Assembly: GCF_010499265.1 (NCBI RefSeq)
Contig: NZ_JAAGSC010000042.1
Span: 10,389-74,388, forward strand
Length of the DNA: 64,000 nt
DNA from: Wenzhouxiangella limi
GTDB taxonomy: Bacteria > Pseudomonadota > Gammaproteobacteria > Xanthomonadales > Wenzhouxiangellaceae
Direction: 5' to 3'
Position numbers and translations under genes: made by a program. The notes beneath the pieces are model-generated. The model searched no databases and was not told the origin of the DNA. It saw only the letters and a program-made list of their open reading frames with translations. This document shows, in pieces, positions 2,261-60,325 of this stretch (within the stretch, counting starts at the first letter, position 1; each line of letters begins with the position of its first letter).

Positions 2261-2283
2261 CCTGATTACGTATGTACCTCAGC
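2261..2283 (+). repeat. IS1595 terminal inverted repeat, left
   Basis: The outer part reads CCTGATTACGTATGTACC. It matches the reverse complement of 3267-3289 at 19 of 23 positions. Confidence 0.8.
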
Positions 2284-3210
2284 CATCGTAGCGAACCGAT
2301 AAGGCAGCGGCGCCGTGCGGCAGGCCACGTAGGCCAGCCGCTCGATCATGCTGCCGAGCTCGAAGCGACGGTTGAAGCGATAAGCGAAGGCGCCCAGGTA
2401 CCGACCAAGGTGCTTTCCTCTGACCGCATGGTAGGTGCCATGCAGAGCTTTCTTGACGTTCCCCAGCATCGTATTGACCCAGGTGAATTCCGGCGTCTCG
2501 ACGCTGCCGGGTCCACCACCAGTCTTGATGCTCCAGTGCGGGCAGGTTTCCACGATGGCCCGGAAGCACGCCAAGCCATCGGAGGTCACTTCCGCCTCAG
2601 GTGCCAGATGCGTTCTCGCCCAGCGATCAATCGAGTCGCTGGAAAAGGACTTGATCGGCGTCATCCGCATCGCCAGAGGCCGCCCGTCGGTACTGCAGGC
2701 CACGGCAGCCACAAATGGCGTCTTGCCCTCGGCACCTCGGCCACGCTTGCCACCCCGACGTTCTCCGCCCCAGTAGGCGTCGTCAACTTGCACCGGACCG
2801 GTCAGTGGTTGGCTGTCATCGCGCTCGCGCATGGTCTCCATCAGTTTCTGCTTGACCAGCCAGGCAGTGTTGTAGGACACCCCGAGGTGGCGACAGAGCG
2901 CCAGCGCCGACAGGCCGGTCTTGCTCTGGGTCAGCAGAAAGATGGCCAGAAACCAGGTCGTCAGGGGCAGCTTGGTCCGATCGAAGATCGTCCGCGCTGT
3001 CAGCGAGGTCTGATGATGACAGTGGTGGCACTGAAAGACCTGGCGAGACTTGATCTGGCAGTAGGTCGAGTTACCGCACTCTGGGCACTCGAAGCCACCG
3101 GGCCAGCGCAACTGAAAAAGAGCGTCTCGGCAGGCCGCTTCAGAGCCGTACTTTTTCAGAAACTCGGTCATGCTGAGGCCTTTCTGAAACTGGACCATAT
3201 TCCGCGCCAT
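2266..3210 (-). CDS. IS1595-family transposase
   Basis: The 314-residue protein has an N-terminal zinc ribbon (CPECGNSTYCQI then FQCHHCHHQ, about residues 41-65). This is followed by an ISXO2-like DDE/DDN catalytic domain with VDDAYWGGERRGGKRGRG and the downstream TPFVAAV segment. This is the usual layout and length for IS1595 transposases, which cut and paste the element between its inverted repeats. Nothing is truncated, so the element may still be active. It sits alone between the two terminal repeats. Confidence 0.92.
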   Translation of the reverse strand: MARNMVQFQKGLSMTEFLKKYGSEAACRDALFQLRWPGGFECPECGNSTYCQIKSRQVFQCHHCHHQTSLTARTIFDRTKLPLTTWFLAIFLLTQSKTGLSALALCRHLGVSYNTAWLVKQKLMETMRERDDSQPLTGPVQVDDAYWGGERRGGKRGRGAEGKTPFVAAVACSTDGRPLAMRMTPIKSFSSDSIDRWARTHLAPEAEVTSDGLACFRAIVETCPHWSIKTGGGPGSVETPEFTWVNTMLGNVKKALHGTYHAVRGKHLGRYLGAFAYRFNRRFELGSMIERLAYVACRTAPLPYRFATMAEVHT

Positions 3211-3266
3211 CTCGTAACCTCGTGTTTATCAGATGGTTACAAGGCTACCGGGAGCCATTCTCAATA

Positions 3267-3289
3267 GCTGAGAAACCTACATAATCAGG
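3267..3289 (-). repeat. IS1595 terminal inverted repeat, right
   Basis: This is the partner of 2261-2283. Its bases at 3285-3287 provide the TGA stop codon of the adjacent glycosyltransferase gene on the minus strand. Confidence 0.8.
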
Positions 3290-4352
3290 TAGCATAATGA
3301 ACAACCTGTTCATACATCATACCAAGAATCTTCCGCAGGTCGTATCTATTTCTAAAAATCAGACCATTCATTTCAGATATTTCAGAAATATTAACCCCGT
3401 TCAACGAATGGACAATTTCAAAAAGATCTGATGCTGACGGAACAGCCTTTACGATTTTTTTTCCCGCCAAATTCTCTTGCGCAAACTTCTCAACCGGTAC
3501 AACAAAATCAGTTCCACATTCATTCATAGGAGCATGATCGGTCGTTACAACCAAGGCACCAGAACATTGGGCCTCATATAAGCCCAACCCCAAGCCTTCC
3601 CAGTACGAGCAAAAAATAAAAACATCCCCGTCGGCATATACGTCTTTTCTCTCATCAAAATTACCGAGGATTAAATTAGCTGACCGAGGCACATTCTCGG
3701 CTAATCGTTCAGTTTGCTGAGTGTAAACTGTCAGCGGAGGAGCGCCCGGCAAAGAAAACGCATCGAATATCACATCCGACGCCTTCCTCAATTTATAACC
3801 ACCATTGCCATTAATAAAAACGAACCTTTTAGCGAATTTTCGAGGAACAAAGGGAAACTCATCGAGATTGACGCCCCACTGTCCTTGCACCACCTTATTG
3901 CGCCAACAATGATGAAAACCATGTGCAAATAACACATCTGATAACGAAGAAAGATACCGGTAAGTGAAATCGGTAACTGCCCACAACATGTCTGTTGCAA
4001 GTGCCCAATCCTTGCTTTCCGGCCACCATTCCCACATCGGAACACCGATCACAAAGACGCCCCGCTTTTTTGCCTCCAGCACTATGTTATACGAACCTCG
4101 CAAGCATGGATGCTCCACATATAGCAGGACGTCAATTGAATCAAGAAAATATTTGTACTCAGCTTCCGAACCTGCAAGTTCGCATTTTATGACTTCACTA
4201 TCACCGCAAGCCTGAAGGTATGGCTCATGGTTCTCAGAATTTGGGTGCTTCGGCACAAGCCAATGTGTTACCCAAGGCGCTAAGCGAACGATGTCATAGT
4301 TCATACTTCCAACGCCACTAGCTATTCCCCATCCAACAAGCCCGACCCTCAT
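3285..4352 (-). CDS. GT4-like glycosyltransferase, C-terminus altered by IS insertion
   Basis: The 355-residue product has a GT-B look. The N-terminal half starts MRVGLVGWGIASGVGSMNYD. The C-terminal half carries DVFIFCSYWEGLGLGLYEAQ and a GALVVTTDHAPMNECG stretch, the donor-binding motif region of GT4-type retaining glycosyltransferases. The start overlaps the upstream stop by one base (TAATG), so translation is probably coupled. The last residues HYAT and the TGA come from the IS1595 end. Reading across the excised element restores HYAVDSFISAKRS and a stop at 2221-2223, eight bases before the next gene's start. The enzyme has therefore swapped about nine native residues for one and may still work. 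The sugar is unknown. Confidence 0.75.
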   Translation of the reverse strand: MRVGLVGWGIASGVGSMNYDIVRLAPWVTHWLVPKHPNSENHEPYLQACGDSEVIKCELAGSEAEYKYFLDSIDVLLYVEHPCLRGSYNIVLEAKKRGVFVIGVPMWEWWPESKDWALATDMLWAVTDFTYRYLSSLSDVLFAHGFHHCWRNKVVQGQWGVNLDEFPFVPRKFAKRFVFINGNGGYKLRKASDVIFDAFSLPGAPPLTVYTQQTERLAENVPRSANLILGNFDERKDVYADGDVFIFCSYWEGLGLGLYEAQCSGALVVTTDHAPMNECGTDFVVPVEKFAQENLAGKKIVKAVPSASDLFEIVHSLNGVNISEISEMNGLIFRNRYDLRKILGMMYEQVVHYAT

Positions 4353-5902
4353 TACGCAGTCTCCCTATTTCGTAATGTCAGAGCTTTCGGAATTTTCCCA
4401 CCCCACCTTCTAACAGTACAATTCTCCGGCAAATCATTAGAAAACCACGCTTGGCGACATTGTGTCGTCTCGGGCCTTGTACGCTCTTCACCCCGGTTAA
4501 CGTAATATTCAGTCTTATCAAGCATATCATCGGCCGGTTTAGCAAAGCCCATATGGACGCAATATGGTCCTTCAAAAACAAAACTATCACCGTCCGCAAT
4601 TTCGCTAATCAGTCTGTTCAGTTTCTTACGTCGCTCATCAACCAAAAAGAAGCCATTCACTTCAGGCCAATTATGATTCCTAAGATACATCATTCCCGGG
4701 AGGTACCTAAAAAATCGCGTATGCGATACATCATAGTATCCCCCAGTCACAAAGTTATTAAGATCCTTCCAAAAGTGAACTTGGGGAACAGTGACTGAAA
4801 GATATTCCGAACCCGCTAATGCTATTTTTATACTTTCAATGAATTCCGGCTCATAAAATTCATCGGCATCAATAACTAGAAGAAATGAAGCACTGGCGTT
4901 GTCCAAATAGCGATTTCGCAATTCAGACTTTGCGTCCTCCCCATCGGCTTTTGTTCTGCCGTGTGCAACATATCTAATTTTTTCAGCATAATCGGGAAAA
5001 AGACGCACCATCAATGACGTGCGATCCCCTGAAAGGCCATTCAATCTTACCTTTCTTTCCGGATAACCTTTGCAGAGCCCTTCTACAATTGTCCAGCTGT
5101 CAACGTAGTTATAGTGCTGCAATAGATTTAATCCAATGTAGTGCTCCTCGTTTAAAACAATAGTTCCTGCATGAAGACTATTGACACTTGTAACTCGGCG
5201 AGCAGAAGCGTTAGGCAATGCACTCGACCATATGCTCGCCGGCTCTGCAGCAGCACCCAACAACGGCAACATCTGGCCATACTGTTCGTCAGGGATGGGA
5301 CGATGAGAGTAAAGCAAACGCGCCCGAGGGGATGCAACCTCAACTCGATCTAGAAACCTAAGATATTTAGCGCGATTTAGTAGCCAAAAAGAATGCCTTG
5401 AGGCTAGCGCCACCATAAACCCGATTGATGGGATCTCATTTTCGAAGTCTGCGTAAACTTCGGGATTGACGTCGAGTTGCTCTGATATATAATTTGCGTA
5501 AAATAAGAGATCTCTTTGAAATGGTGACGATATCGCACACTGCAGTGCTCGTTGAAGATGCGCAACTGAAGGAGCAAGACTCCCACACTCGTCAAGAAAA
5601 GCGATAATTATATCGTCGCTAACTTTTGGTGAGTTCTGAAACTGCAAATTGACAGGCAATCGAAAAAGGGCGTCTAGTTCGCTAGGAAGCGCCTGTTGGG
5701 GGCATGAATTAGCGTTAGCAATTGATTCAGATCTGGCTATCCGCCTTCGACAGATCTCCGCGTTCACTTCCAGAACCCGTTCTAATCGCGGCCATTTTTT
5801 TGCAAGCTGGTTATACTCGCCAAGAGCTTTACGATAGAGTTTAGCGTTAAAGCTTTCGTTGGCCGCCTTCAGTTGAGCTATAGACTCCATATTTGATTTC
5901 AT
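4352..5902 (-). CDS. GT2-like glycosyltransferase with helical N-terminus
   Basis: About 516 residues. The first 190 or so look helical and repeat-like (NAKLYRKALGEYNQLAKKWP), similar to TPR-type extensions. The middle has a GT2/GT92-like fold: HAGTIVLNEEHYIGLNLLQH, then FLLVIDADEFYEPEFIESI, with DADE as the probable metal-binding acidic motif. I prefer the ATG at 5902 because GGGGGA lies five bases upstream. An in-frame ATG also exists at 5938. It is cotranscribed with the sulfotransferase gene upstream and coupled to the GT4-like gene downstream by TAATG. It probably adds one sugar to the surface glycan; the donor is unknown. Confidence 0.65.
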   Translation of the reverse strand: MKSNMESIAQLKAANESFNAKLYRKALGEYNQLAKKWPRLERVLEVNAEICRRRIARSESIANANSCPQQALPSELDALFRLPVNLQFQNSPKVSDDIIIAFLDECGSLAPSVAHLQRALQCAISSPFQRDLLFYANYISEQLDVNPEVYADFENEIPSIGFMVALASRHSFWLLNRAKYLRFLDRVEVASPRARLLYSHRPIPDEQYGQMLPLLGAAAEPASIWSSALPNASARRVTSVNSLHAGTIVLNEEHYIGLNLLQHYNYVDSWTIVEGLCKGYPERKVRLNGLSGDRTSLMVRLFPDYAEKIRYVAHGRTKADGEDAKSELRNRYLDNASASFLLVIDADEFYEPEFIESIKIALAGSEYLSVTVPQVHFWKDLNNFVTGGYYDVSHTRFFRYLPGMMYLRNHNWPEVNGFFLVDERRKKLNRLISEIADGDSFVFEGPYCVHMGFAKPADDMLDKTEYYVNRGEERTRPETTQCRQAWFSNDLPENCTVRRWGGKIPKALTLRNRETA

Positions 5903-5959
5903 TCTATCCCCCATAGCTGGAACGACACATTCAGGCATACCGCCGAAAATCGAATTGAC

Positions 5960-7186
5960 CTACCTGAAATAACAAAGATCTGGTGCGAGCCGAACTTTTT
6001 GAATCAATGATGCATAAGCGCTCTCAATACGAAATCGGTCTGCACTGCGAACTCGCGTTGTTCGGCTCTTCTTTTCTGGCAGCGGAACCTGGCAACCGAG
6101 TAGTTTCTCTACGATATCTGCAAGTTCATGTATTCGGTCATAGCGCACGCAGACATGCGGAATACCGTTCGGACGCATCCACGCGTCGAACATTTTTTCA
6201 TAATTCAAGTGATCCGCTTCATAAAGATCAGAAGTTTCAGGCGAAAGGTGTTCCGCACCGCAGTTTCGGAAATGGCCTGCATCGAATCGCTTCTCGCGCG
6301 TGGACACCACTGAGTCCACCACGTCACCAAATAGAAATATCGCTACGTCTACTTTGTTAACAAGGGTAGACGGCTCAAAGGTATGAGTTTTGACGTGCGG
6401 TCCCGCGTAGTCCTTCGGTGTTGTACTCCCAGGTGGAAGGCCTGCAATCGCGCGAAAAGTCATCGTCGTACCAGATCTGGGTATACCTGCAACGGCGACT
6501 CTCGGTCTGATAGAAGCGTCTAAAACTGGTGACGAATTAGAAAGAATCTGCCCCATCGCTGCGTACTGGGCCATTTCCCAGATTACTGACGATCCGCTAG
6601 CCTCAGCAAGGGATATCAGTTGACGCGTTGCGGTCGGCTTTAGAACCAGGTCGATATCGGCATCCGGCGCCGCGAGGGCGATGGCTGAACGAAAGTGATT
6701 CATGACCTTCTGGTCGGGGCGGTGAGTAAGTGCTGCGATTCGGCCCAATGTGTTGCTGGCCCCTCCGATCAAGATCCGGGCAACGGATTCACTATCCATA
6801 CCGGCTCCGATAGCTCTGTCGAGCAAGGCGCGGGCGCGCGACCTGGCATGCTCACCGCCTTTTTGCAGATGCCCGGCGGCGGCCAGCAGTTGCAGCTCGG
6901 CCGCGGCCGGGTTGTGTTGGAGTTCGTGATCGTCCAGATCGGCCAGCTTTTCCCAGTCGCCCAGTTGTAGCTGCAGGCGCGAGCGGTTAAGCAGGCGCGG
7001 GTTGTAGGGGACCAGGTTGGATTGCGCTTGGGCGGTTCGTGTCAGGTCTTGTTGGGTGTGATCGGCCGTGTCTTTCGGCTCGTTCGGCTGCCGAGCGACG
7101 TGGGTATCTGGCCGTGGCTTGCGCGCCTTATGAGGACGGCTGCGGATGGCCTGGATACGCTGCTTGCTGGTTCTGCGCGAGGGCAT
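5960..7186 (-). CDS. Sulfotransferase-family protein with basic/helical N-terminal extension
   Basis: In this 408-residue product, residues 231-241 read AVAGIPRSGTT, the 5'-phosphosulfate-binding loop of PAPS-dependent sulfotransferases. Further on, VDVAIFLFGDVVDSVVSTRE occupies the place of the family's second phosphate-binding segment, although the usual R-x2-R/S pattern is weak. The first 60 residues are very basic and low-complexity. Residues 60-130 look like a TPR-type helical repeat. It lies seven bases after the FkbM/coiled-coil gene in the ops-led operon. It may sulfate the glycan or merely share the fold; substrate unknown. Confidence 0.65.
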   Translation of the reverse strand: MPSRRTSKQRIQAIRSRPHKARKPRPDTHVARQPNEPKDTADHTQQDLTRTAQAQSNLVPYNPRLLNRSRLQLQLGDWEKLADLDDHELQHNPAAAELQLLAAAGHLQKGGEHARSRARALLDRAIGAGMDSESVARILIGGASNTLGRIAALTHRPDQKVMNHFRSAIALAAPDADIDLVLKPTATRQLISLAEASGSSVIWEMAQYAAMGQILSNSSPVLDASIRPRVAVAGIPRSGTTMTFRAIAGLPPGSTTPKDYAGPHVKTHTFEPSTLVNKVDVAIFLFGDVVDSVVSTREKRFDAGHFRNCGAEHLSPETSDLYEADHLNYEKMFDAWMRPNGIPHVCVRYDRIHELADIVEKLLGCQVPLPEKKSRTTRVRSADRFRIESAYASLIQKVRLAPDLCYFR

Positions 7187-7193
7187 GGTGCGG

Positions 7194-8531
7194 TCAGACC
7201 GGCTTGTCTCGAAACACCAGCTCCTTGATCAGCTCCAGCTGGGATTCGGCCTTTAGGAATTCCTCGTCGATCAGGGCTTCCTTGCGTTGGTATTCCTGCT
7301 CCAGCTTGCGGTATTTCTGCTGTAGGTCGTCGTTGTGCTGGCGGGTGGATTTGGCATCGTTCTCGGCTGCGCTGAGCTTGGCCTGGAGTTGTTTGAGTTC
7401 TTCTTGCTGTTTTCGGGTAGCTTCGGAGGCTTCTTTTGCCTTGGCTTCTAGCTGAGTGCGCAAGCTGGCGTTTTCTTCTTCCAGGGCCTTGAGGCGCTTT
7501 TCTTGCTCGGTAAGGTTGGCAAGTTTTTGTTCGGCCTCGGTGAGTTTCTGCTGCGCCTCGTCGTGGGCCTGGGTGAGGCGGGCGAGGTCTTTCTTGTGCT
7601 GGTGGAGTTCGGTGCCGAGCTTTTCGCTGGTGGATTTTTGTTCGGTGAGGGCGGATTCGAGTTGCTGGGTTTTGGCCAGCTGGGCCTTTTGCTGTTCTTC
7701 GGCCTGGGTGCGGGCTTGTTCGGATTCGGCCAGTTGGGTCTTGAGGGCGTTGAGTTCGTTCTGATGCTGGCGATCGCTTTCGGCCAGGACTTGCTGGACG
7801 CTGGCCAGTGCCTTTTCGATGGCCTGCAGGTCGGCTTTGTGTTCAGCCTCCAGCGTTTGGTAGCGCGCCAGCTCGGCCTTCAGGCGCTTGCATTCCAGCG
7901 CCATGCGGTCCAGGCGCAGGTGGTGGCGGGGCCAGTCGGCGTCGGTGGTGTCGGGCTGGCTGGCGGGTTCAAAGCCTTGGGCCTGCAGCTGGATTACCAG
8001 GTCGGCTGCGCTTTTGGCGCCTTCATACAGGGGTTCGATGCCGGCGCTTAAGAAAATGCGGGCAAAGTGGTGCAGGCGGTCGCTGCGCTGCAGTTGATCG
8101 ATCACGGCGGCTTCTTCACCGGGGGTGTCAATGACCAGCCAGTTGCCGGTTTGGATGTCGATACCCAGCCGGTCCAGCAGCTGGTCCACGGTTAGTTGCT
8201 CGACCGTCGCCCGGCCGGTTTGCTGCAGCCCGGGCAGGCTGTGGTACAGGCCGGTGGGTTCGCGCAGGCTCGACAACAGGGGGAAGTTGAACAGGGGAAA
8301 GCTACCGCGGCCGGGTTGGTCGGCAATGGCGGCGGCAATAATTTCGACGTTATCATGGTCGGCGGTGCTGCGGCGCAGTTCGGCGAGCAGCTCCGGGTTG
8401 GGTTCGACCAGCACGATGCGCTTGGCACCGGTTTGCTGCCAGGTGGGCAGCTCGCGGCACAAGCCGGCACCTAAGTGAATGATGGCGTCGGGCGGTGGCG
8501 TATTTTGCAGTTGTTGTTGTAGCCAGTCCAT
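7194..8531 (-). CDS. FkbM-like methyltransferase domain fused to long coiled coil (copy 1)
   Basis: Residues 1-215 or so of 445 resemble class I FkbM methyltransferases. IIHLGAGLCRE stands in place of the SAM-binding glycine loop, VEPNPE is the acidic strand end, and VIDTPGEEAAVI corresponds to the family's D-x2-G-x-E element. Residues 215-435 are an almost uninterrupted coiled coil rich in Q, E, K and A. It is clearly paralogous to the protein at 41649-43436, with the same N-terminal motifs and the same order after a coiled-coil partner gene. By analogy with WbdD-type proteins, the coil could position a capping enzyme or measure chain length. That is inference; methyl transfer is not shown. 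Confidence 0.65.
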   Translation of the reverse strand: MDWLQQQLQNTPPPDAIIHLGAGLCRELPTWQQTGAKRIVLVEPNPELLAELRRSTADHDNVEIIAAAIADQPGRGSFPLFNFPLLSSLREPTGLYHSLPGLQQTGRATVEQLTVDQLLDRLGIDIQTGNWLVIDTPGEEAAVIDQLQRSDRLHHFARIFLSAGIEPLYEGAKSAADLVIQLQAQGFEPASQPDTTDADWPRHHLRLDRMALECKRLKAELARYQTLEAEHKADLQAIEKALASVQQVLAESDRQHQNELNALKTQLAESEQARTQAEEQQKAQLAKTQQLESALTEQKSTSEKLGTELHQHKKDLARLTQAHDEAQQKLTEAEQKLANLTEQEKRLKALEEENASLRTQLEAKAKEASEATRKQQEELKQLQAKLSAAENDAKSTRQHNDDLQQKYRKLEQEYQRKEALIDEEFLKAESQLELIKELVFRDKPV

Positions 8532-8554
8532 GTGTCCCCCTGGCGTGGCTTACT

Positions 8555-9820
8555 TTAGGAAAAGATTCTTAAAGGCTTGGTGATTTTCCAGGATTTGCTG
8601 TTTTTCAGGGCCTGGATGGTGTCGTGGGCTGCCTCGACGGTGTCGGGCAGCGGCTGTTTCTCGCTGGCTGCAGGGCCTGCGCCAAAGACCCGCAAGAACC
8701 AGCGCAGCGGCCGGGTCAGGCGCCAGGAATAGCTGTTGTAGATGGCCCGGATGGTGTCATGGGCAGCGTGGAGCTCGGCCGTGTCTTGCCACGGGCTGGC
8801 CTGCTGGGTGCTTTGCAGGTAGTAGTGCTCCAGCTCTTCCTGGACGTGGTGCAGCTGCTGCAACAGCAGCTCGTTTTCTTCCTGCAGGTCCTGGAGGGCC
8901 GGGTCGTTTTTGCCGGATTCCTGGCCGGCCGATTCCAGCTGTTTGCGCAGCTGGTCGTACTGCTTTTGGGCCTGGGCCAGTTTTTCTTCGCTTTGTTTGG
9001 CCTGCAAAAAGTGGCTTTGCAGTTCTTCTTGCACCTGGTGCAGCTGGGTGAGCAACAGCTCGTTTTCTTCTTTGAGCTCTTCGGCTGTCTGAGCTTTGTG
9101 CTGGACTTGCTGGAGTTTTTGGCGGGTTTTTTCCAGCTCGACCCTGGAGGTCGTGTCGACGCTGTGGCGGTATTCGGCAAAAACCTGGTCGATGGCCGGC
9201 AATAAGATGTTTTGGGCAGAGCGCAGCGGTAACGCGGTGGCGGTCAGCTCTGCAGCCAGATTGCGGGCCTCACTTGATTGCCAGATGGCGTTTTCGGCCA
9301 TCATGCGCAGCACGGCGCTGGGCAGGGCCGGCGCGGCGGCTTGAGCGGGAACCTCTTGCAGCTGTAACTGCAAACGCTGGCTGACGGTGTCCAGCAGGGC
9401 TGGCGTATCGGCCAGGGCCGGTTCGGCAAACAGCAAGCTGACCCGCCGCCGATGCCGCCGAATGACCGCCAGCACCGGTTGGGCCGACTCCAGCCATTGC
9501 GCCAGCGCTGTCTTGGGCGCCATGCCCTCGCCCAGCCGGCGCGCCACGGCCACGACCGGCAGGCGCATCAGCAGCAGCAGATGGCCTTGAGGGTGTTCTG
9601 CCATCCAGTCCGAGACCTCGGCCAGGTCGCCGATCTGGTCCTGGCTGATCAGTTGTGGTTGCCCGCATGGGTCGCTTTGGGCAGCCTGGTCGGATAGTCC
9701 GGCGGCCTTTAGCGCATCAAAAAAGGCGGCCTGGTGGGTGGGCAAGGTGGCCGCCACAATCACGCTCTGCGGCGTTTGGATCGCGGCCAGCCTGCGGGTG
9801 CTGGTTTGGTGGTCGCTCAT
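8555..9820 (-). CDS. Coiled-coil polysaccharide-cluster protein with tandem SWxxTxPLR tails
   Basis: About 421 residues. The first 180 or so form a globular domain containing VLAVIRRHRRRVSLL. It is shared with the C-terminal half of the protein at 43433-45400 and has no function known to me. Two near-identical heptad blocks follow (ENELLLTQLHQVQEELQ and ENELLLQQLHHVQEELE). The end has two copies of a tail motif, SWRLTRPLRW and SWKITKPLR, each preceded by AAHDTI. The tails are probably amphipathic and may touch the membrane. I chose the ATG at 9820, downstream of the ops element; an open frame continues upstream to 10003 through the leader. First gene of its operon. Confidence 0.6.
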   Translation of the reverse strand: MSDHQTSTRRLAAIQTPQSVIVAATLPTHQAAFFDALKAAGLSDQAAQSDPCGQPQLISQDQIGDLAEVSDWMAEHPQGHLLLLMRLPVVAVARRLGEGMAPKTALAQWLESAQPVLAVIRRHRRRVSLLFAEPALADTPALLDTVSQRLQLQLQEVPAQAAAPALPSAVLRMMAENAIWQSSEARNLAAELTATALPLRSAQNILLPAIDQVFAEYRHSVDTTSRVELEKTRQKLQQVQHKAQTAEELKEENELLLTQLHQVQEELQSHFLQAKQSEEKLAQAQKQYDQLRKQLESAGQESGKNDPALQDLQEENELLLQQLHHVQEELEHYYLQSTQQASPWQDTAELHAAHDTIRAIYNSYSWRLTRPLRWFLRVFGAGPAASEKQPLPDTVEAAHDTIQALKNSKSWKITKPLRIFS

Positions 9821-9933
9821 GTGGGTCTCGGCAGGCAGGAGATACCTTGGATAATTTACAGTGCTGAACATTTCAGTGTGATGAATTCCCCAAAAAGCAC
9901 CCTTTTTCGGTAATCTGCCTGAGGGGGCTTCAG

Positions 9934-9952
9934 GCACGCTACCGCCCTTGGG
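9934..9952 (-). promoter_or_regulatory. ops/JUMPStart element (RfaH recruitment site), copy 1
   Basis: The minus strand reads CCCAAGGGCGGTAGCGTGC. It contains GGCGGTAGCGTG, the operon polarity suppressor core that recruits the antiterminator RfaH in long LPS and capsule operons. It lies in the leader about 115 bases before the coding start at 9820. An A/T-rich hairpin (CCGAAAAAG pairing with CTTTTTGG) follows at 9890-9909 and could be a pausing or attenuation structure. The same 19 bases recur at 21470-21488. Confidence 0.75.
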
Positions 9953-10026
9953 CGCCCCCACCGTTTTCGCGATTGCCAATAGCTGGCATACCCTCGTCAT
10001 CAAAGGGTCATCGCCAACACGTTTAA

Positions 10027-10032
10027 AGTATA
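10027..10032 (-). promoter_or_regulatory. Candidate -10 box for the 9820 operon
   Basis: TATACT on the minus strand lies about 75 bases upstream of the ops element, the right place for the operon promoter. No good -35 hexamer is visible 16-18 bases upstream, so an activator may be needed or the call may be wrong. Confidence 0.35.
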
Positions 10033-10275
10033 CCGAACTTTAACGCGCCTATAGCACCTGGATTGGCGCGGGTTCGACGGGTTGTCCGGTTTCGGCAACG
10101 GGTGTTTTTGGTCGGCGAGCAGTTGCTGGACGCCGAATGTCATAATATGTCACAGGGCACGGAGTAGCGGCAATCGACCCTAATCGCCCCCTCAACATCC
10201 AAGACATATTGATGGCAGCATTTGTACATATCCGGTGCCACGTTTTTGTCGCCTTACCATCTGAGCACTTCGACG

Positions 10276-10983
10276 ATGATAACCAGGAAGGAAAGACGGA
10301 CTTCAAACTTGGAGTCTCTCGAAGCCATTTTTGTCCACATCCCGAAAACGGCAGGAGTGACCCTGCGGCAAGTATTAACAGATTTGTACGGCCCATCAGC
10401 GGTTTTTTTGTCTTATCATCGAAAAGTCGAAGGCATACGACCGGATATAGCACAATCAGTTCCACCGGGCACACGCGTTCTGGCAGGCCACTTCACCTTC
10501 CGTCAGATAGAACATCTTTACGACCCCCGACGCCATAAAATTTTTACCTTCGTTCGCGAACCGCTAGCACGTTTTGTTTCTTACTACTATCATCTAAAAC
10601 GTCATGCTCACACAACGCAAGCGACCCGAATAGAGAAAGCTCGCAAGCACGAACCTCTTTGGATATATGCCGCAAACCCTTTTTACTTTAATGTCATCCA
10701 TAAATACACAAAAGGTCTAGATTTAGATGACTGGAACTTTATCGGCAGACAAGAAACTTTCGACACTGACCTTCCGAAACTTCTTGATATCTTAGGTCAA
10801 GACCTCCCAAAGAAAAAAAAAGAAAGTCTCTGCAAGCTACACTTTAATGCAAATAGAACATATCCGCCCAAAACAAGACCATTAGCTAAGCCTCTTAATT
10901 CGTGGCTTAAAATTATCAACTCGAAAGACCGTAAAGTACTAGCTCAGATTGATTTAATTAGGTCCAAGAAAGGATGGCTGTAG
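10276..10983 (+). CDS. Sulfotransferase, heparan/chondroitin type (Sulfotransfer_2)
   Basis: The protein (235 residues from the ATG at 10276) has FVHIPKTAGVTLR (about residues 19-31), the 5'-phosphosulfate loop typical of carbohydrate sulfotransferases related to heparan sulfate 2-O-sulfotransferase. FTFVREPLARFVSYYYHL follows as the 3'-phosphate-binding segment with its R and S. Such enzymes move sulfate from PAPS to a sugar hydroxyl. It is divergent from the ops-led operon and begins a run of three sulfotransferase genes. No clear Shine-Dalgarno precedes the ATG, so the start is uncertain. It is short for the family but both nucleotide motifs are intact. Confidence 0.8.
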   Translation: MITRKERRTSNLESLEAIFVHIPKTAGVTLRQVLTDLYGPSAVFLSYHRKVEGIRPDIAQSVPPGTRVLAGHFTFRQIEHLYDPRRHKIFTFVREPLARFVSYYYHLKRHAHTTQATRIEKARKHEPLWIYAANPFYFNVIHKYTKGLDLDDWNFIGRQETFDTDLPKLLDILGQDLPKKKKESLCKLHFNANRTYPPKTRPLAKPLNSWLKIINSKDRKVLAQIDLIRSKKGWL

Positions 10984-11093
10984 TTCGCCGATGGCTGGCA
11001 ACGTTTACGATTGGCAATATGGCAACCGTTACCTATAGCCAGCCAAATTTGGGATTCAACCGAACCTTGCTGCACCTAATAGCAGAGGATGGC

Positions 11094-11936
11094 ATGAAGG
11101 CTTTATTGAAAAATATTCTTCTCTTTAGCAGGTTGTACCGCTCGCCTAGGCCGTTGATAGACGACCACCATCGAACGGTCATTTCATGGTCCGCCAAAGC
11201 AGCCTGCACACGTGTCTTGATCTGGCACTACGAAAGACTTGGACTGATCGACGAGGCGCTTCAATACCATCACTGGCCACACAAATACAGAATGAATGTT
11301 CTATATAAGTCACGTCGCTATGTCGAAGGTCGGAAAAAGCTCATAAGGGAGGGCCCTCCGCTTTGGGACTATGTCAAAGTCGTTCGTGATCCTGTGAAGC
11401 GCTGCGTGTCATCCTACCGGCATGCACTAGCCCATGGATATGCCGACAAGAACATGAGCGCGGTGCTGGGTAAGAAAATAGACCATAAATATGGTTTTTC
11501 CTATGCTACGTTTCTTGAGTATCTGAAGGGCATAAATATTTCACGTTGCGATGTACATCATCAACTTCAGGCCCATCCTTTAGACAAAATCAAGTTTGGA
11601 CGCACCTGGCTTGTACACATCGATGAATATGATTTGGACACGGAGCTGGCCTCGATTGATTCAGCCCAAGGCGTTATGCTAAACAGAAAAGATTCGGTCG
11701 CAGGTGACTTTGTGCGCAAAGATGCGCACCGATATGCCATAGGCAAAAGGAAATCTGACTCATTTGATGTAGATCAGTGGTTGCGTCCCCTGAGAAAATC
11801 CGATACCGCGTCTTGGCCGAAACAAGCACTTGAAAAGGCACCAGAAGCCAGAGAGATCGTTGGTAAACTCTATGGTCATGACTACCGAACCATATCAGAA
11901 TTGAAAAATCGATCAGAAAGATTTGAAGCAGACTAA
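11094..11936 (+). CDS. Sulfotransferase-family protein
   Basis: About 280 residues. VISWSAKAACTRVLIWHYE near the N-terminus takes the place of the phosphosulfate loop, and YVKVVRDPVKRCVSSYRHAL is a good 3'-phosphate segment. The layout resembles Sulfotransfer_2-type carbohydrate sulfotransferases. I prefer the ATG at 11094 because AGAGG lies five bases upstream. An in-frame ATG at 10974 overlaps the end of the previous gene but has a badly spaced ribosome site. It probably acts in the cytoplasm on glycan or a lipid-linked precursor. Its middle differs from the neighbouring sulfotransferase, so another acceptor position is likely. Confidence 0.7.
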   Translation: MKALLKNILLFSRLYRSPRPLIDDHHRTVISWSAKAACTRVLIWHYERLGLIDEALQYHHWPHKYRMNVLYKSRRYVEGRKKLIREGPPLWDYVKVVRDPVKRCVSSYRHALAHGYADKNMSAVLGKKIDHKYGFSYATFLEYLKGINISRCDVHHQLQAHPLDKIKFGRTWLVHIDEYDLDTELASIDSAQGVMLNRKDSVAGDFVRKDAHRYAIGKRKSDSFDVDQWLRPLRKSDTASWPKQALEKAPEAREIVGKLYGHDYRTISELKNRSERFEAD

Positions 11937-12009
11937 GACGTTAGTCTAAACAGCGCGGCCACGCTGAATCTAAATGCTCTAGGGAGCCTCTGGATAGGGC
12001 ACCGGTTTT

Positions 12010-12350
12010 GCGATGCTGGGGTCAGTTGGCTGCAACACGTTGATTTCAGATGAAACATCTGATACTGCGTTAGGGCAGCATTGTGGATGCCAGCATCTTT
12101 ACGGCACCGAGCTCGACAAAGAATGCCGACAAGCAGCGGGATCCGGAGATGCACCAGACCACGAAAGCAAACCAGTGGCACTGCGGCATGAAGGTGTATA
12201 TCGGTGTCGATGATGAACTGACGGTCGCAAACAAGCTTCTGCATGGTCAGGAGAAGCGGGTCTACGGTGATGCCGGCTCGGCTATCGTGGCATCGAGAAA
12301 CGGCAAGCGCATCAGGCGCGCAGAAAATGCCGCTGACGTAGGTTCAGTAC
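12010..12350 (+). pseudogene. IS5-family transposase remnant
   Basis: The frame from 12083 reads [20 protein letters not shown] after [20 protein letters not shown]. These are diagnostic stretches of the IS5-family DDE domain (the usual form is [16 protein letters not shown]). Upstream and downstream parts of the transposase are missing or frameshifted. The region 11937-12560, between two sulfotransferase genes, holds only this relic as far as I can see. Confidence 0.7.
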
Positions 12351-12560
12351 GTTCGGAGTCCGCCCATAAAGCGGCATCCGGCCAAAAATTGATTAGAAAA
12401 CGAGCAAGAAAATCGCGCACAATCTATACCAGCCCTTCCCTTCCGGGAGAGCGAGTTAGGCGAAAATCATCGTTATTCAGAGACTCTTTAGCGCTGTTGG
12501 ATGCATTCAGCCACATCGAAACAGCTCATCATATTTCCATAAATAGTAATGGGGCTTTCC

Positions 12561-13739
12561 ATGGTTGATAAAGTGATTCTTCATATCGGTATGCATAAAA
12601 CCGGCTCGACGTCGATTCAGGAAGCGCTCAAAGACTACGACGATGGCAAGACATTCTATGCACCATTTCAAGAAGCCAACCACTCGGCTGCTATTCGATC
12701 TGCTTTCTCCAAGAGACCAGAAGACTTTCACTCTTGGCGGAAGCTCGGCCTGGATCGATCGGAGGTCCTCAGTCGCCGCAACCAATACAGGAGTCAATTG
12801 GTCAGTGATCTGAAAAGAAAGGATCGGGACCAGCTCATCATCTCTGGTGAAGACATCGGCTTGCTTGAAGAAGCGGGAAAACATGAGCTTGTTGAACTCT
12901 TAAATCGACATGCCAAAATCATTCAGGTGGTGTGTTACATCAGAGCACCGATGGAATTCGCCGCATCGTATTTGCAGCAGCAGATTAAAACTGGGAGGAA
13001 ATCGCTTCCTGAACTAATTAAGACCGATTATAAGAAGCGTCTTACTTTCTTCAAAGAGCATCTACCAACGGACCAAATCATTGTCAAATCCTTTAACCGG
13101 CAAACCTTGCAGCGGGGTTGTGTCGTATCCGATTTCTGCCGTACCTGCGGCATTGACAGCACACAAGTACCAAAATCAAGGTTAAACGAAAGCCTGAGCG
13201 CACCGGCCTTGAAGCTCCTGTATTCATTTAACAGGAGCAACGGCTGTTATCAAGGTGATCTAGTGACTCATCGGGCCCACCACCTGTTGATTCAATGGAT
13301 AGCTCACGATTACCGAACAGGTCCGGGCATTAAACAAAGCCGCTTCCTCCCGATGAGCGATTTTTCCGAGCTGGACTACTTGCGCGACAAGTTCGGGCTC
13401 CATTTTGAACCTCCCAACCCCCAGATCCACTCTGGCGATCAGTCACTTGAGGCCTGGTTGACTGACACCAGCGACATTGACATGGAACCTTTGAATCAAC
13501 GTCTCGCGCAGATCGGAGTCAATAGCCAAAATAAATCTGTTGATTTTCTTCTTAACAGGCTGTATTACCACGCACTTGTGGTTACCGCCTTACGCCATCA
13601 ACAAGTCCGCATCCAACCGAACATGATTAGCCGGGGACTATTGAGGGATGTCATAAAAAGCCTCTTCATTGCGACATTCAACACCATCAGGCGAAGGATT
13701 TTCACACCTGCTCACCGACGCGCAGACCGCAATGGGTAA
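12561..13739 (+). CDS. Sulfotransferase-like P-loop protein
   Basis: The protein (392 residues from 12561) begins [19 protein letters not shown], a textbook phosphosulfate-binding loop. [20 protein letters not shown] then SYLQQQIK occupies the second phosphate-binding position. GGGG six bases before the ATG at 12561 supports this start over the one at 12549. The C-terminal 200 residues are not recognised. The gene converges on the RgpF-like gene, with stop codons overlapping by about 38 bases. Together with the two upstream sulfotransferases it forms a sulfation cassette broken by the IS5 remnant. Acceptor unknown. Confidence 0.7.
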
Positions 13740-33645: not shown

Positions 33646-34059
33646 TCATTCGGCTTTGCCAGTGTGTGGCCGATCCAGCATCGATAAGGCCTTTTTTTGG
33701 AGATCGACGCAGTCCTGGGTGATTTCGAGCCGTTGCTTGAGTCGCGAGATATCCTTTTCGAGCTGCTGAATCCGCCGCTGATCCGGTGTCAATGCAGATC
33801 GCGGGCCGGGCTGGGTCTTCGACAAAGCGGCCTCGCCACCGTCAGCAAGCTCCTTGCGCCATTGCTGGAGTTGGCCGCGGTAAAGCCCCTCCGAACGGAG
33901 TAACTCGCCGAGCTCGCCATACTGACAGGCATCGGCCTTGGCGATGATCCGCAGCTTGAATTCGGTTGAAAACCGGCGGCGACTCCGCTTTTCAAGCTCC
34001 GGCTTCGGGACAACCTGTGTCTCCGGCTGTTGCAGGACTGGCTTAGGCATTGCGCTCAT
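33646..34059 (-). CDS. IS3-family OrfA (transposase DNA-binding subunit)
   Basis: The 137-residue product has a helix-turn-helix with FSTEFKLRIIAKADACQYGE and LLRSEGLYRGQLQQWRKEL. A leucine-zipper-like segment follows (IQQLEKDISRLKQRLEITQ). That is the normal architecture of IS3 OrfA, which binds the inverted repeats. OrfB is only a stub downstream, so this is an orphan piece of a dead element. It separates the giant repeat protein from the second polysaccharide operon. Confidence 0.8.
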   Translation of the reverse strand: MSAMPKPVLQQPETQVVPKPELEKRSRRRFSTEFKLRIIAKADACQYGELGELLRSEGLYRGQLQQWRKELADGGEAALSKTQPGPRSALTPDQRRIQQLEKDISRLKQRLEITQDCVDLQKKALSMLDRPHTGKAE

Positions 34060-36165: not shown

Positions 36166-37185
36166 TCACAGATCCGAAGCGGGGCCAGACTCTTTGAGAT
36201 CTTCCCACTGGAGAACAGACAAACACATATCGGAAAGCGACCTCCTGGGCCGCCACCGAGTATCCGCTTTGAGTCGCTCACCAGAAGCATAGACTTCCGC
36301 CGGATCACCAATACGCCGCTGTTCAAAGCGCAATGGAACTCTACTCCCCATTGCGGCTTCGAACCTAGTTACGATATCGATCACGCTATAGCCATGCCCC
36401 GTCCCGACATTATAGACGAGGAGTTTCGACGTTTTCTTGGAAGCCTCCAGTGCCTCTACGTGCGCTTCAGCTAGATCCATTATATGGATATAGTCTCGAA
36501 CACCGGTCCCATCGCGCGTCGGAAAGTCCTTCCCGAACACCGATAAAGCTTCTTGCTCTTTCTTGAGCACACGAACAATTTGAGCAACCAAGTTATGACT
36601 CTGTTCTTTAACAACTTCACCAAGAAATCCAGCCGGATGGGCTCCTACCGGGTTAAAATACCTGAGGATAACCCCACGCATATTGCTTCGGGTGGCAATA
36701 AAGGACGCAATGAGCTGCTCGGCCGCTAATTTTGTCTGCCCGTAGGGGTTTATGGGTTTAGTCTCTGTGAGCTCAGTAACTGGAAGTTCCGTTGGAATGC
36801 CATAGACAGCGGCCGTCGAACTGAATACAAATCGAGAAGCATGATACTTATCCATGCATTTGAGTAAACAAAGTGTTCCTTGGACATTGTTCTCCCAGTA
36901 TGCCAAGGGATCCCTGATGCTCTCAGGAACAGATTTATAGGCTGCAAAATGAATGACGCCATCAGGTCTGAAAGCTTCAAATACTCTTTCCAGCCCCTCT
37001 AAATTTAGAATGTCGTGCCTCCAAAATTTCGGCTTGACGCCTGTGGTCCTTCCTATAGCATCCAGAACGTCCTCTGAAGAGTTGGAGAGATCATCAACAA
37101 TCGCAAGCTCGTGGCCCTGGTTTATAAGTACTGTCGCAGTATGCGATCCGATGTAACCCAGCCCACCAGTGACTAAAACTTTCAA
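36166..37185 (-). CDS. galE: UDP-glucose/UDP-GlcNAc 4-epimerase, GalE/KfoA type
   Basis: A full-length 339-residue short-chain epimerase. The NAD-binding TGGLGYIGSH is at residues 7-16, then IHFAAYKSVPESI, FSSTAAVYG and the catalytic YGQTK (Y-x3-K), with ILRYFNPVGAHPAGFLGE later. It interconverts UDP-Glc/UDP-Gal and in some members UDP-GlcNAc/UDP-GalNAc. The start is a TTG overlapping the TGA of the KfoC-like gene (TTGA), so the two are translated together. In E. coli K4 the kfoA epimerase supplies UDP-GalNAc to KfoC, and the same job is likely here. Sugar specificity cannot be read with certainty. Confidence 0.9.
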   Translation of the reverse strand: MKVLVTGGLGYIGSHTATVLINQGHELAIVDDLSNSSEDVLDAIGRTTGVKPKFWRHDILNLEGLERVFEAFRPDGVIHFAAYKSVPESIRDPLAYWENNVQGTLCLLKCMDKYHASRFVFSSTAAVYGIPTELPVTELTETKPINPYGQTKLAAEQLIASFIATRSNMRGVILRYFNPVGAHPAGFLGEVVKEQSHNLVAQIVRVLKKEQEALSVFGKDFPTRDGTGVRDYIHIMDLAEAHVEALEASKKTSKLLVYNVGTGHGYSVIDIVTRFEAAMGSRVPLRFEQRRIGDPAEVYASGERLKADTRWRPRRSLSDMCLSVLQWEDLKESGPASDL

Positions 37186-39254
37186 TTAATTATCCCACCA
37201 GAGCCAACATTCTTGAAGCAATACTTCCGACATCCCGGATTCTCGGTGGATGCCGGCGCCACTTGAATCAGCTCGATTCCCTGACGATTCAGGGCGTTAT
37301 TGGCAGCAATAAAATGGTTCTCCTTCTGCAATTCAACCCGCTTGACCGACGTGTTATGCCCGTGCAAGCGACGGATATACGACCTAGTATTTATATGTTT
37401 AATCGGCGCAACTTCACTGAGTTTAAGATAAATATCGTAATCCACAGCGTTCTCCATTTCTTCAGAAAAGCCTTGCGTCATATGCCACGCTCTTGCGCTA
37501 AACATTCGAAAATGATGAACGATCATAGCAGTTGCCAGCTTTTCTCGGGAGAAAGCGGGCCAGTTATATCCTGGCGTCATCTCTCTAGTTGATGCGTCCT
37601 GATTCCAATTGCTCGTGTAGACCAGCCCCAGATTCGGATCATTTTCGAACTCGTGCAGGCATAATGCCACGGCGTCCGGGAGCAACAAATCATCCGAATC
37701 CAACTGACCGATGTAGTGGCCGCGACAGTTTCGGACGGCGGTATTTGACGCGGAACCAATGCCGCCATTTTTCTGGCTGACTATTCGGACACGTGGATTT
37801 TTTTCATACTGGTTTTGTAGAACCGTCAATGTTTCATCAGTTGAGCCGTCATCGCAGACCACAACTTCCAGATCGGTTACAGTTTGTGCCAGAGCACTGT
37901 TGACGCAGTCAACGATAAAGGCTTGCGCATTGAAGGCGGGGATGTATATGGACACCAACGGCCGACGCCGGATACGAGCATTCTCTATATTTGGGCTCCG
38001 TTTCCGATAGAAAATGGGGACTCTATCTTTCACCATCGGGATTGTGATGACCTTTCCTTGCTTACGGTCGATTTCATTTTCGCCGCCCGGCGGTTCCTGG
38101 TGATACGCAAGGCCCTCGGGCAGAGAGCGGAAAAAGCAGCCCTGCCGAAACAGACGATAGCCATACTCATTATCCTCACCGCCCCAGGCAGAGAAGTCTT
38201 CGTCGAACCCCCCAACCAATTCAACCCATTGACGCGAAAAAGCAACGTTCCCTCCGCTGAAATAACGAAAAGGATGAGTGCACAATCGTAGTTGCTCAGT
38301 GTGCTTGAAAGCTTCTAACCGCCAATCTACCGAAACCTCTCCATCCCGTTTTCCGGAGAGTTCATTTTTACTGAGTACTAACGGAACGGTTTCAAGGTAA
38401 TCGGGATCATTAAGAAAGTCGCTGACGTCCAAATCTCCAGTATCGATGTACTTCCTGGGGCCGATGAGCGCCCAGCGCCAACTCAATGACAATGCCTCGC
38501 AGTAGCTTTGTACCCAGCCTCTCGAAGGCGCCATATCGCAGTCTAGGATTGCAATCCAGTCGTGGCGGGCCGCACGAATGCCCAGGTTACGAGCGGCACA
38601 AAGCCTGTAGCCAGAATCGGGCTGACGCAGATATTTGACATCCAGCTTACTCTCGTAGCCTCTGACAACTCCTTCGATATCCACACTGCTGCCATCATCA
38701 ACCACTAGTACTTCGAAAACAAATTGGGTCTGCTGATGACAAAGACAGGCCAGCGTGATTGCAAGATGATGTGGCCGGTTGAAGGTCGGGATAATGACGC
38801 TCAGCCCTGTATCAGAGCGACGGATCTGTGAGTCCTTAAAGTGCCGTAGCATCCAGCAATAATCATTAGTTGATTCCGGCAGTGCGGGCAGCTCCAGACC
38901 ATCGGGCCAGTCGGAGGGTACTGTCTGGGGGTACTCCGAAACCTCTATGGGCTGGGAGGTGTTTTCCCACTGCTTTCGCAACTCCTGAATAAGCCGTCGT
39001 CGCTCGTCGTCGGAGAGCGCAGCCTTATTTGCATTGGACAAGAGTATTCGGGTAACGGGATCCATGACATCTACCGCAATCCCGGAAGAGTCAATACCCG
39101 ACTCCGATTGACCCAACCGCGCTCGACATTGGGCGATACTGTAATCCACCCATTCCACACCGGTTACAGCTTTGAATTCCTCATAAAGCTTGAGGGCGGC
39201 CCGATATTGGCCGGTTTCGAATAAGCGATGCGCTTCTGTCAGTGAGAGGGTCAT
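37182..39254 (-). CDS. Bifunctional glycosaminoglycan polymerase, KfoC/PmHAS-type
   Basis: 690 residues from the ATG at 39254, close to the length of E. coli K4 KfoC. The order of parts is as follows. There is an N-terminal helical segment (LFETGQYRAALKLYEEF), then LELPALPESTNDY. GT2 domain A1 has SVIIPTFNRPHHLAITLACL, AILDCDMAPS (DCD at 238-240) and WGGED at 357-361. GT2 domain A2 has LVSIYIPAFNAQAFIVDC and GQLDSDDLLL (DSD at 519-521). This is the architecture of class II hyaluronan and chondroitin synthases, which alternately add a HexNAc and GlcA. All key acidic motifs are intact. Coupling to an epimerase favours a chondroitin-like backbone. A UDP-glucose dehydrogenase is not in the window. 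Confidence 0.88.
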   Translation of the reverse strand: MTLSLTEAHRLFETGQYRAALKLYEEFKAVTGVEWVDYSIAQCRARLGQSESGIDSSGIAVDVMDPVTRILLSNANKAALSDDERRRLIQELRKQWENTSQPIEVSEYPQTVPSDWPDGLELPALPESTNDYCWMLRHFKDSQIRRSDTGLSVIIPTFNRPHHLAITLACLCHQQTQFVFEVLVVDDGSSVDIEGVVRGYESKLDVKYLRQPDSGYRLCAARNLGIRAARHDWIAILDCDMAPSRGWVQSYCEALSLSWRWALIGPRKYIDTGDLDVSDFLNDPDYLETVPLVLSKNELSGKRDGEVSVDWRLEAFKHTEQLRLCTHPFRYFSGGNVAFSRQWVELVGGFDEDFSAWGGEDNEYGYRLFRQGCFFRSLPEGLAYHQEPPGGENEIDRKQGKVITIPMVKDRVPIFYRKRSPNIENARIRRRPLVSIYIPAFNAQAFIVDCVNSALAQTVTDLEVVVCDDGSTDETLTVLQNQYEKNPRVRIVSQKNGGIGSASNTAVRNCRGHYIGQLDSDDLLLPDAVALCLHEFENDPNLGLVYTSNWNQDASTREMTPGYNWPAFSREKLATAMIVHHFRMFSARAWHMTQGFSEEMENAVDYDIYLKLSEVAPIKHINTRSYIRRLHGHNTSVKRVELQKENHFIAANNALNRQGIELIQVAPASTENPGCRKYCFKNVGSGGIIN

Positions 39255-39270
39255 AGACTGCCGGAGAGTA

Positions 39271-58914: not shown

Positions 58915-59129
58915 CGACGAGATAAGGACAACTTTCTGGTGGTGATGGCGTGATTGGGCGATTGTCATGCAGTAAGCTTCCCTGTTGGGCTGTACGTTAG
59001 GAATCTAGAGCGTAAATGGGTTCGCTGAGCGCTCCTGTCGGCATGGCTTCCAGTGTGCCCGGTCCGCCATTCCAGCTTTTCTGGGCACTGGACGCCTCCG
59101 CCTGGCGATTGGTCAGGCATAGGACCAAG

Positions 59130-59729: not shown

Positions 59730-60325
59730 GCCTCGTCACCTTCGGATCCAGACACCTGGTAGACCGCGTGCAGCAAAACGCCGTCCGCACGCCCGTGCTC
59801 AACGTCAATGCGCAACTCATCAACGACAATCAAACCGTCTCGGTTTTCAAGTGCCGCGAGGAACCCCAGCAGACGGCGCGGGTCATGCTGCAAGCGCAAC
59901 GTGGCCCCTACCTTGAACAAACCCGGGATATGCCCTATTGCAGCTGGGGCTTGCATTTCCAGCCGGCTGATCTGCAGTCCGGCTGATTGAGCCTCGCGTT
60001 CCAGCATTGACTGAAACTCCGCCCGCGCCAGGCTGGTGGTTTCGGCTCGATATAGCCGATTGTGAATTTGCTGCAGTTGATCGTTGGCTTCAGACAATCG
60101 TGTTTGCCAGTCACTGTCGGCCAGTACAACATCCAGATGGTGGTAGAGCCTTGCTTGGCGCTCAATTTCCGGCACCAGATCGCGACGCGCGTCGGCTAGG
60201 CTTAGCACCAGATTTAGCCCGAGTAGACCGAGTACAAACCACACCCCGATCCGAATACGCGGTTGCTCAACCAGCGCGCGGCGGATGGTTTCGGTTCCGT
60301 GGATCAGGGTCTTGTTCAAGGCCAT
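59726..60325 (-). CDS. T2SS protein GspM/XpsM
   Basis: The 199-residue product has a cytoplasmic start of about 25 residues, one membrane span (IGVWFVLGLLGLNLVLSLA), a helical periplasmic stretch and a ferredoxin-like C-terminal domain (LRLQHDPRRLLGFLAALENR). This is the PilO/GspM layout. It binds GspL to form the inner-membrane assembly platform. The gene overlaps both neighbours by a few bases. Confidence 0.75.
   Translation of the reverse strand: MALNKTLIHGTETIRRALVEQPRIRIGVWFVLGLLGLNLVLSLADARRDLVPEIERQARLYHHLDVVLADSDWQTRLSEANDQLQQIHNRLYRAETTSLARAEFQSMLEREAQSAGLQISRLEMQAPAAIGHIPGLFKVGATLRLQHDPRRLLGFLAALENRDGLIVVDELRIDVEHGRADGVLLHAVYQVSGSEGDEA

Follow-up and report, generated by a model that had tools for sequence, protein, structure and literature searches.

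The stretch of Wenzhouxiangella limi DNA analysed here (64,000 nucleotides, hereafter the window) carries two glycan operons on its minus strand. In each of them, a gene for a coiled-coil partner protein was followed by a gene for a coiled-coil protein with an FkbM methyltransferase-like head, namely P0002 and then P0001 in operon 1, and P0004 and then P0003 in operon 2 (Table 1). P0002 was taken to start at the ATG at 9820, and its open reading frame (ORF) stayed open to 10003. The paralog of P0001 was P0003, and that of P0002 was residues 354-678 of P0004 (43433-44407); the first ~350 amino acids of P0004 formed a separate sulfotransferase domain, and the paralogous stretch started near 44407. 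P0001 and P0003 were 38% identical over 337 amino acids (BLASTP, E 2e-67). P0002 matched the C-terminal half of P0004 with an E value of 7e-18, and the N-domains of the two, aligned alone, shared 28% identity. A sequence-only reading had described this arrangement as a duplicated pair in the same order and on the same strand, and the paralogy was significant in both genes. The motifs that it listed as shared were recovered in the four proteins as VLAVIRRHRRR or VLAVVRRHRKR, HLGAG, and the tails RLTRPLR plus KITKPLR or KLTRPLR. The exception was VID[TV]PGEEA, which reads VIDTPGEEA in P0001 and MIDVPGEEA in P0003.

The similarity of the copies extended outside the coils. The FkbM heads of P0001 and P0003 were 48% identical over 207 columns with the coil excluded, and the heptad periodicity of the head domains was not above that of shuffled sequences (P 0.78 and 0.98). 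Hence, the similarity goes beyond what coiled-coil composition can account for, and the pairwise alignments bore out the claimed relationship. The identity of P0001 was 69% to a partial head in genome G024, 51% to G037 and 48% to P0003, and the tree did not resolve P0001 and P0003 as sisters. Because P0001 is closer to G024 and G037 than to P0003 and the tree lacks the sister pairing, the two window copies, judged from their sequences, are not a recent duplication.

Domains of the paired proteins

The heads of P0001 and P0003 scored 29.4 and 23.1 bits against PF05050 (cut-off 22.7 bits), and 46.9 and 44.4 bits against TIGR01444 (cut-off 37.7 bits). In the AlphaFold2 (AF2) model of P0003, built from a 42-sequence alignment, the head had a predicted local distance difference test score (pLDDT) of ~97 and was continuous with a single helix (209-343). 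The model matched class I methyltransferases with Z values of 13-15, including the FkbM structure 2PY6 (Z 13.7, root-mean-square deviation (rmsd) 2.5, 164 aligned residues). Among the FkbM coiled-coil proteins (FkbM-CC), the S-adenosylmethionine-motif residues were largely retained: G21 in 65/66, G23 in 56/66 and E43 in 66/75, with D in 6 more. The FkbM-CC proteins differed from the FkbM family (PF05050, TIGR01444; 2PY6) in their long coil and in a motif I in which His mostly stands. The heptad power of the P0001 coil was 2.65 compared with 0.69 in shuffles, and the periodicity of the coils was above shuffles for P0001 and P0002 (P<0.001) and for P0004 (P 0.02). The relatives at loci L053, L060 and L131 fell under the Pfam FkbM cut-off or were not listed; P0001 had no sequence match in the PDB, and the phage search returned no relatives. 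The C-terminal domain of P0003 was modelled by AF2 with low confidence and by eye parallels that of L053. The L053 protein (9785-11533) has an extra C-terminal domain with a clearer methyltransferase-like motif than its P0003 counterpart, which looks degraded.

The partner protein was not assigned to a sulfotransferase family by Pfam in P0002, and no Pfam sulfotransferase was listed for the partners of L055, L053, L048, L049, L074, L059 and L061. The AF2 model of the P0002 N-domain (57 sequences) had a pLDDT of 88.2. Sulfotransferases ranked first in its Foldseek search, though none reached E<=0.001. In the VIA comparison, the best match had a Z value of 12.1 (rmsd 4.8 over 180 residues), and all 50 listed rows were sulfotransferases. 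The 5'-phosphosulfate-binding P-loop of sulfotransferases is a P.SGT-like motif, and P0002 carries ATLPTHQAA at its position. No conserved loop for 3'-phosphoadenosine 5'-phosphosulfate (PAPS) was seen across the 64 aligned partner domains, and remnants such as GCPRSGWE (L074) were kept in Chromatiales and Desulfuromonas relatives. The P0002 N-domain is called a pseudo-sulfotransferase here because a sulfotransferase fold is predicted and the PAPS loop is gone. It shares its predicted fold with PAPS sulfotransferases (PF13469; TPST2 3AP3, curacin sulfotransferase 4GBM, STF9 2Z6V) and differs from them in lacking the 5'-phosphosulfate loop and the 3'-phosphate motif. It is probably a conserved dead sulfotransferase, new to Pfam, that serves as an assembly part.

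The P0002 coil contained two EENELLL.QLH.VQEEL segments. In P0004, the N-terminal sulfotransferase matched PF13469 (E 3.5e-6) with an intact-looking GMHRSGTS loop, and residues 356-528 were recognised as the partner domain by a profile hidden Markov model (HMM). In the partners of L059, L061, L074 and L126, a domain with YL..YPDVA..G..P..HY motifs stood in place of the SWR tail, and a stretch resembling this domain was present in L051, in a small gene for a coiled coil (6176-6796).

Recurrence and coil variation in relatives

The distribution of the pair was examined in the family (43 genomes), the order (299 genomes) and the class (369 genomes). Within the family, strong FkbM-pair matches were found in G000 (two), G037 and G024 and weaker ones in G030, whose contig holds only a C-terminal piece of the partner; partner-domain matches were confined to G000, G024 and G037. 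In the order, the FkbM head was detected at E<=1e-10 in 13 genomes, 11 of which carried module-type genes in 12 copies, two of them in G000; neither a partner nor a module sulfotransferase was found in the remaining G175 and G028. The partner was located directly upstream of FkbM-CC in 10 of these 12 copies (not in G277 and G138), a count obtained without a sulfotransferase query, and a sulfotransferase of family A5 was directly downstream in 7 (the G024 contig ends there). In the class, the head occurred in 13 genomes; besides G000, the partner was upstream in G583, G660 and G545, and no partner was present within the ~3.5-kb loci of the other nine.

A further survey of named genomes took the best 80 of 154 relatives from a scan with a sulfotransferase alignment and applied our own HMMs to their ORFs. 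Many of these relatives were Rhodobacterales and Maricaulales, and others were Chromatiales, Rubrivivax, a Desulfuromonas metagenome-assembled genome and further taxa. The gene pair recurs in Gamma-, Alpha- and Betaproteobacteria. Fourteen of the 80 loci, in which the DNA upstream was too short (<3 kb), were left out of the gene-order count. In the others, FkbM-CC lay directly upstream of the sulfotransferase in 64/66 loci, and the partner lay directly upstream of FkbM-CC in 44/66; counted at any position within the locus (E<1e-8), the partner was present in 55. Without the four loci from which the models were built, FkbM-CC preceded the sulfotransferase in 60/62 and the partner preceded FkbM-CC in 42. 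The FkbM-CC and sulfotransferase ORFs overlapped or lay <=50 bp apart in 63/64, with ORF starts taken mechanically. The module sulfotransferases kept C[TS]GGT and VR.P.DS, that is, intact PAPS motifs. Fusions joined sulfotransferase and partner in P0004, and FkbM and sulfotransferase in L103 (Shimia biformata); a scaffold-FkbM fusion in L105 was set aside as a likely frameshift.

The genes around the module included many for glycan enzymes. Among the 46 full-length loci, strict cut-offs gave gmd in 24, fcl in 20 and GT10 in 14, with any of the three in 28. The 72 downstream ORFs, which were chosen mechanically, included 11 matches to GT2 and 9 to GDP-mannose dehydratase. Matches to rfbB at E<1e-12 were discarded, since most of them came from related dehydrogenases; at E<1e-80, 2/46 were left. 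The expectation that a conserved two-gene coiled-coil/FkbM module is tied to glycan clusters was thus supported by 44/66 loci for the gene order and 28/46 for GDP-fucose or GT10 genes. Two points went beyond it: the N-domain of the partner is, by prediction, a degenerate sulfotransferase, and a genuine one is often the further member that makes the module complete.

On the Salipiger abyssi plasmid pPABY6, the three-gene module stands beside rfbABCD, gmd, fucose synthase, GT10 and an ABC exporter (ABC, ATP-binding cassette). On Salipiger, Sulfitobacter and Leisingera plasmids, it lies amid fucose or rhamnose synthesis genes and GT10, and an ABC exporter accompanies it on the Salipiger and Sulfitobacter plasmids (L152, L154). 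Roseobacter RepA plasmids with a rhamnose operon are reportedly 'biofilm plasmids'; the plasmids that carry the module are comparable to these, and the coiled-coil pair is annotated there as hypothetical. In Rubrivivax gelatinosus DSM 1709 (L098), the module is downstream of kpsT- and kpsE-like genes. According to PMC3684757, the psc2 cluster of R. gelatinosus S1 holds kpsMTED and proteins of no assigned function, and a stiK mutant obtained from this cluster showed altered aggregation and stickiness. Both clusters are kps-linked. Past insertion sequences, operon 1 is followed in the window's genome by gmd and a related reductase. No flippase was found there above the Polysacc_synt_3 cut-off, the one flippase family that was searched.

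The length of the FkbM-CC coil between the head and a conserved tail ranged from 16 to 657 amino acids, with a median of 155. The conserved coil tail was present in 71/76 FkbM-CC proteins, the others being P0001, P0003, G030, G059 and L103. A strongly basic 30-residue C-terminal tail was found in 38/76, the window copies not among them. Tandem arrays reported by TRF, counted at a score >=80 and a period >=18, occurred in 24/69 FkbM-CC genes, 10/58 partner genes and 0/69 sulfotransferase genes. All 38 FkbM-CC arrays had a period divisible by three, and 18 of the 24 main periods were multiples of 21 nt (binomial P 3e-11 against 1/7, for related loci that are not independent). In two Nioella species, the FkbM-CC proteins were 91% identical except for one internal gap of 147 amino acids, that is, 3 x 49. 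In other close pairs, the coil-length differences were not consistently multiples of seven. In relatives, coil length evidently evolves by heptad repeats between conserved ends. The whole-heptad expansion, the conserved ends and the lack of arrays in the sulfotransferase genes suggest a coil that stays in phase and can be tuned in the course of evolution.

Several searches and matches were set aside. A peptide-pattern search with the FkbM pair alignment gave 98 stretches and no confirmed relative, the patterns being unsuited. PHROGs matches were weak and partly to tape-measure coils, and many Pfam/NCBIfam coiled-coil matches were attributed to composition.

Possible chain-length control and competing explanations

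Beyond the enterobacterial models, how the chain length of sulfated and capsular polysaccharides is controlled is largely unexplained. In known ABC systems (PMC11231755, PMC3482155), coiled-coil terminators set the chain length in that only long chains are capped. The modifying enzyme is located at the far end of a coil whose opposite end meets the polymerase at the membrane, and the coil length of WbdD is an established ruler of glycan length. The present module resembles WbdD (E. coli O9a / K. pneumoniae O3), WbbB of O12, ORF7 of O4 and ORF6 of O7 in having a modifying domain on an extended coil in a glycan cluster; in WbdD and ORF6-O7 this domain is a methyltransferase. It differs from WbdD in its FkbM-type head and its lack of a kinase. 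The basic tail, which may bind the membrane, belongs to another coiled-coil protein, the one that bears the dead sulfotransferase domain; the third member is usually a live sulfotransferase, and an exporter is mostly not adjacent. WbdD was not among the matches of the PDB profile search (E<=1), nor among the fold matches listed for the P0003 model. The parallel that the sequence-only reading drew with WbdD is fair as an analogy, although that profile search found no close sequence relationship.

It is quite possible, though we would not call it probable, that the pair forms the heart of a cytoplasmic complex, peripheral to the membrane, which finishes growing chains of surface polysaccharide by capping or sulfation at a fixed distance from the membrane. 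P0002 and P0004 would be the anchors, each with an inactivated sulfotransferase domain on a coil ending in a basic SW[RK].T.PLR tail, through which the module may bind the membrane. P0001 and P0003 would carry the FkbM methyltransferase-like head on a long coil of variable length. The third partner would usually be a sulfotransferase, encoded by its own gene in most genomes and fused to the anchor in P0004, and the three proteins may assemble into one membrane-bound complex. By analogy with WbdD, the coil could act as a spacer or ruler, and the copy in each operon could tune its own glycan, making the module a length-control device that is WbdD-like but differently built, with its parts distributed among two or three proteins. 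The heptad-phased expansion between conserved ends would count for such a ruler. The stronger form of this proposal, which we consider rather unlikely, is a widespread and undescribed class of ruler for sulfated bacterial glycans. In it, a dead sulfotransferase on a membrane-anchored coil and an FkbM protein on a repeat-expandable coil would hold a live sulfotransferase at a fixed distance from the polymerase, and sulfation or methylation would end the chains only when they are long enough. If this form is true, the gain and loss of 7-residue-phased repeats would retune the length of the capsule, and where a genome makes two glycans, each operon would keep a divergent copy of its own.

A number of observations weigh against the capping complex and its ruler. 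The coil was almost absent in some members (16 amino acids in L122 and L131, none in the L103 fusion), the coil lengths of partner and FkbM-CC were weakly coupled (Spearman 0.27, p 0.08, n 44), and an exporter gene was found in only 6/46 full-length loci; these three points count against a ruler. The window copies had no long tandem arrays in their coils, P0001 and P0003 both lacked the conserved coil tail, and the periodicity of the P0003 coil was not significant (P 0.15 against shuffles). In the window's genome, the Wzm/Wzt pair lies on another contig and has a sub-threshold Wzt_C match. With exporters scarce and this pair located elsewhere, an ABC pathway is no more than a possibility for most loci. 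The SW[RK].T.PLR tails are basic, and their helical moments stood at P 0.05, 0.21 and 0.05 against shuffles. The hydropathy scan, with Wzm as the control, revealed no clear transmembrane segment in the window proteins: the highest 19-residue means were 0.62 for P0001, 1.15 for P0002 and 1.46 for P0004, compared with 2.61 for Wzm, and the 1.82 of P0003 falls within its C-terminal domain and may reflect a buried strand. The canonical acidic residue of FkbM motif I is Asp. This position was His in 45/66 FkbM-CC heads, which makes their methyltransferase activity uncertain. The A5 sulfotransferase was not adjacent in G583, G660 and G545, and an HMM search found its family in neither window operon. 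Moreover, the named-genome survey was seeded by the sulfotransferase and so favours sulfotransferase neighbours.

The chief rival explanation, possible but doubtful, is a scaffold for sulfation that involves no ruler. The pseudo-sulfotransferase and the FkbM-like protein would bind, position or activate sulfotransferases along the glycan and perhaps methylate, and the coil length would drift freely, since tethering alone would count. Pseudo-enzymes often serve the active relatives beside them as allosteric or structural partners, and the nearby sulfotransferases, the fusions, the members nearly devoid of a coil and the weak length coupling all fit this explanation. It accounts less well for the in-phase, tunable coil suggested by whole-heptad expansion, conserved ends and array-free sulfotransferase genes, and for those pairs without an adjacent sulfotransferase of the module family.

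Independent tailoring enzymes are improbable. FkbM-CC would methylate, the sulfotransferase would sulfate, the coils would only oligomerise, and the genes would be co-inherited in cluster blocks; the retention of G21 and E43 in the heads and the neighbourhood rich in glycan enzymes agree with this. However, a loop-less pseudo-sulfotransferase is kept in one slot across classes, and the tight gene order and the fusions argue for a closer association. A polysaccharide co-polymerase (Wzz/KpsE-like) or another envelope structural coiled coil is very improbable: long coils do occur in glycan clusters, but P0001, P0002 and P0004 lack a transmembrane segment by hydropathy, the heads are enzyme-derived, and KpsE is encoded separately in the L098 cluster.

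If the capping complex is real, the simple gene triad, which roseobacters, Maricaulales, purple sulfur bacteria and others share, would mark those glycans that a capping machine built on coiled coils finishes. Natural variants in repeat number, like those of the two Nioella species, would then be suited to a test of the ruler, and the module would give meaning to 'hypothetical' proteins on marine plasmids. The components are known folds, and their arrangement was not found described. No description of the combination of FkbM, coiled coil and sulfotransferase was found in the open-licence literature, where absence is weak evidence, and the available part of PMC12220298 makes no mention of FkbM or sulfotransferase. 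Among the listed matches on pseudo- or inactive sulfotransferases, none was by its title on the present module, and one was on gut bacteria.

Neighbouring genes in the window

Table 1. Positions of the module proteins and of neighbouring genes in the window.
Feature	Position	Strand	Description	Basis
P0002	8555..9820	-	421 aa; predicted pseudo-sulfotransferase N-domain, coil, two C-terminal SW[RK][LI]T[RK]PLR tails	
P0002 N-domain	9176..9820	-	predicted sulfotransferase fold without PAPS-binding loop	AF2, VIA
P0001	7194..8531	-	445 aa; FkbM methyltransferase-like head (1-207) and ~237 aa coil	PF05050, TIGR01444
P0004	43433..45469	-	678 aa; sulfotransferase (1-~350) fused to predicted pseudo-sulfotransferase domain (356-528), coil, SWKLTRPLR tail	
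P0003	41649..43436	-	595 aa; FkbM head, coil (helix 209-343), C-terminal domain that looks like a second, degraded methyltransferase (low confidence in AF2)	
Third gene of operon 1	5960..7186	-	GIPRSGTT motif	Sulfotransfer_3 E 0.061, below cut-off
Next gene after the third	4352..5938	-	short TPR-like N-terminus and weak GT2 match	
Gene after P0003	40173..41624	-	GT2-like domain	PF00535
Operon 2 glycosyltransferases	39271-40167; 37182-39350	-	two GT2 stretches in 37182-39350	
Operon 2 epimerase	36166-37185	-	galE-like	

The third gene of operon 1 resembled sulfotransferases only weakly and was outside the sulfotransferase family of the module, with no HMM match at E 0.01. A tetratricopeptide repeat (TPR)-like N-terminus was noticed in five gammaproteobacterial genes, namely 37182-39350 and 4352-5938 of the window, 3-3713 of L025, 7164-8174 of L168 and 13459-15822 of L169. 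These genes lie near the module and are mostly glycosyltransferase-like. The TPR-like N-terminus was rejected as a general partner of the module, just two weak matches (L058, L091) being obtained beyond the five source genes.

Genes that we take to be transposase-like lie in or beside the glycan region, at 2266-3210 and 33646-34059 in the window and at 15-965, 3074-4024 and 7946-9586 in L026. On the plus strand beside operon 1, three more genes at 10222-13739 read as sulfotransferase-like (KTAGV and HKTGSTS motifs). Furthermore, the genes at 56812-62997 read as type II secretion-like, with a secretin and pseudopilin/assembly proteins.

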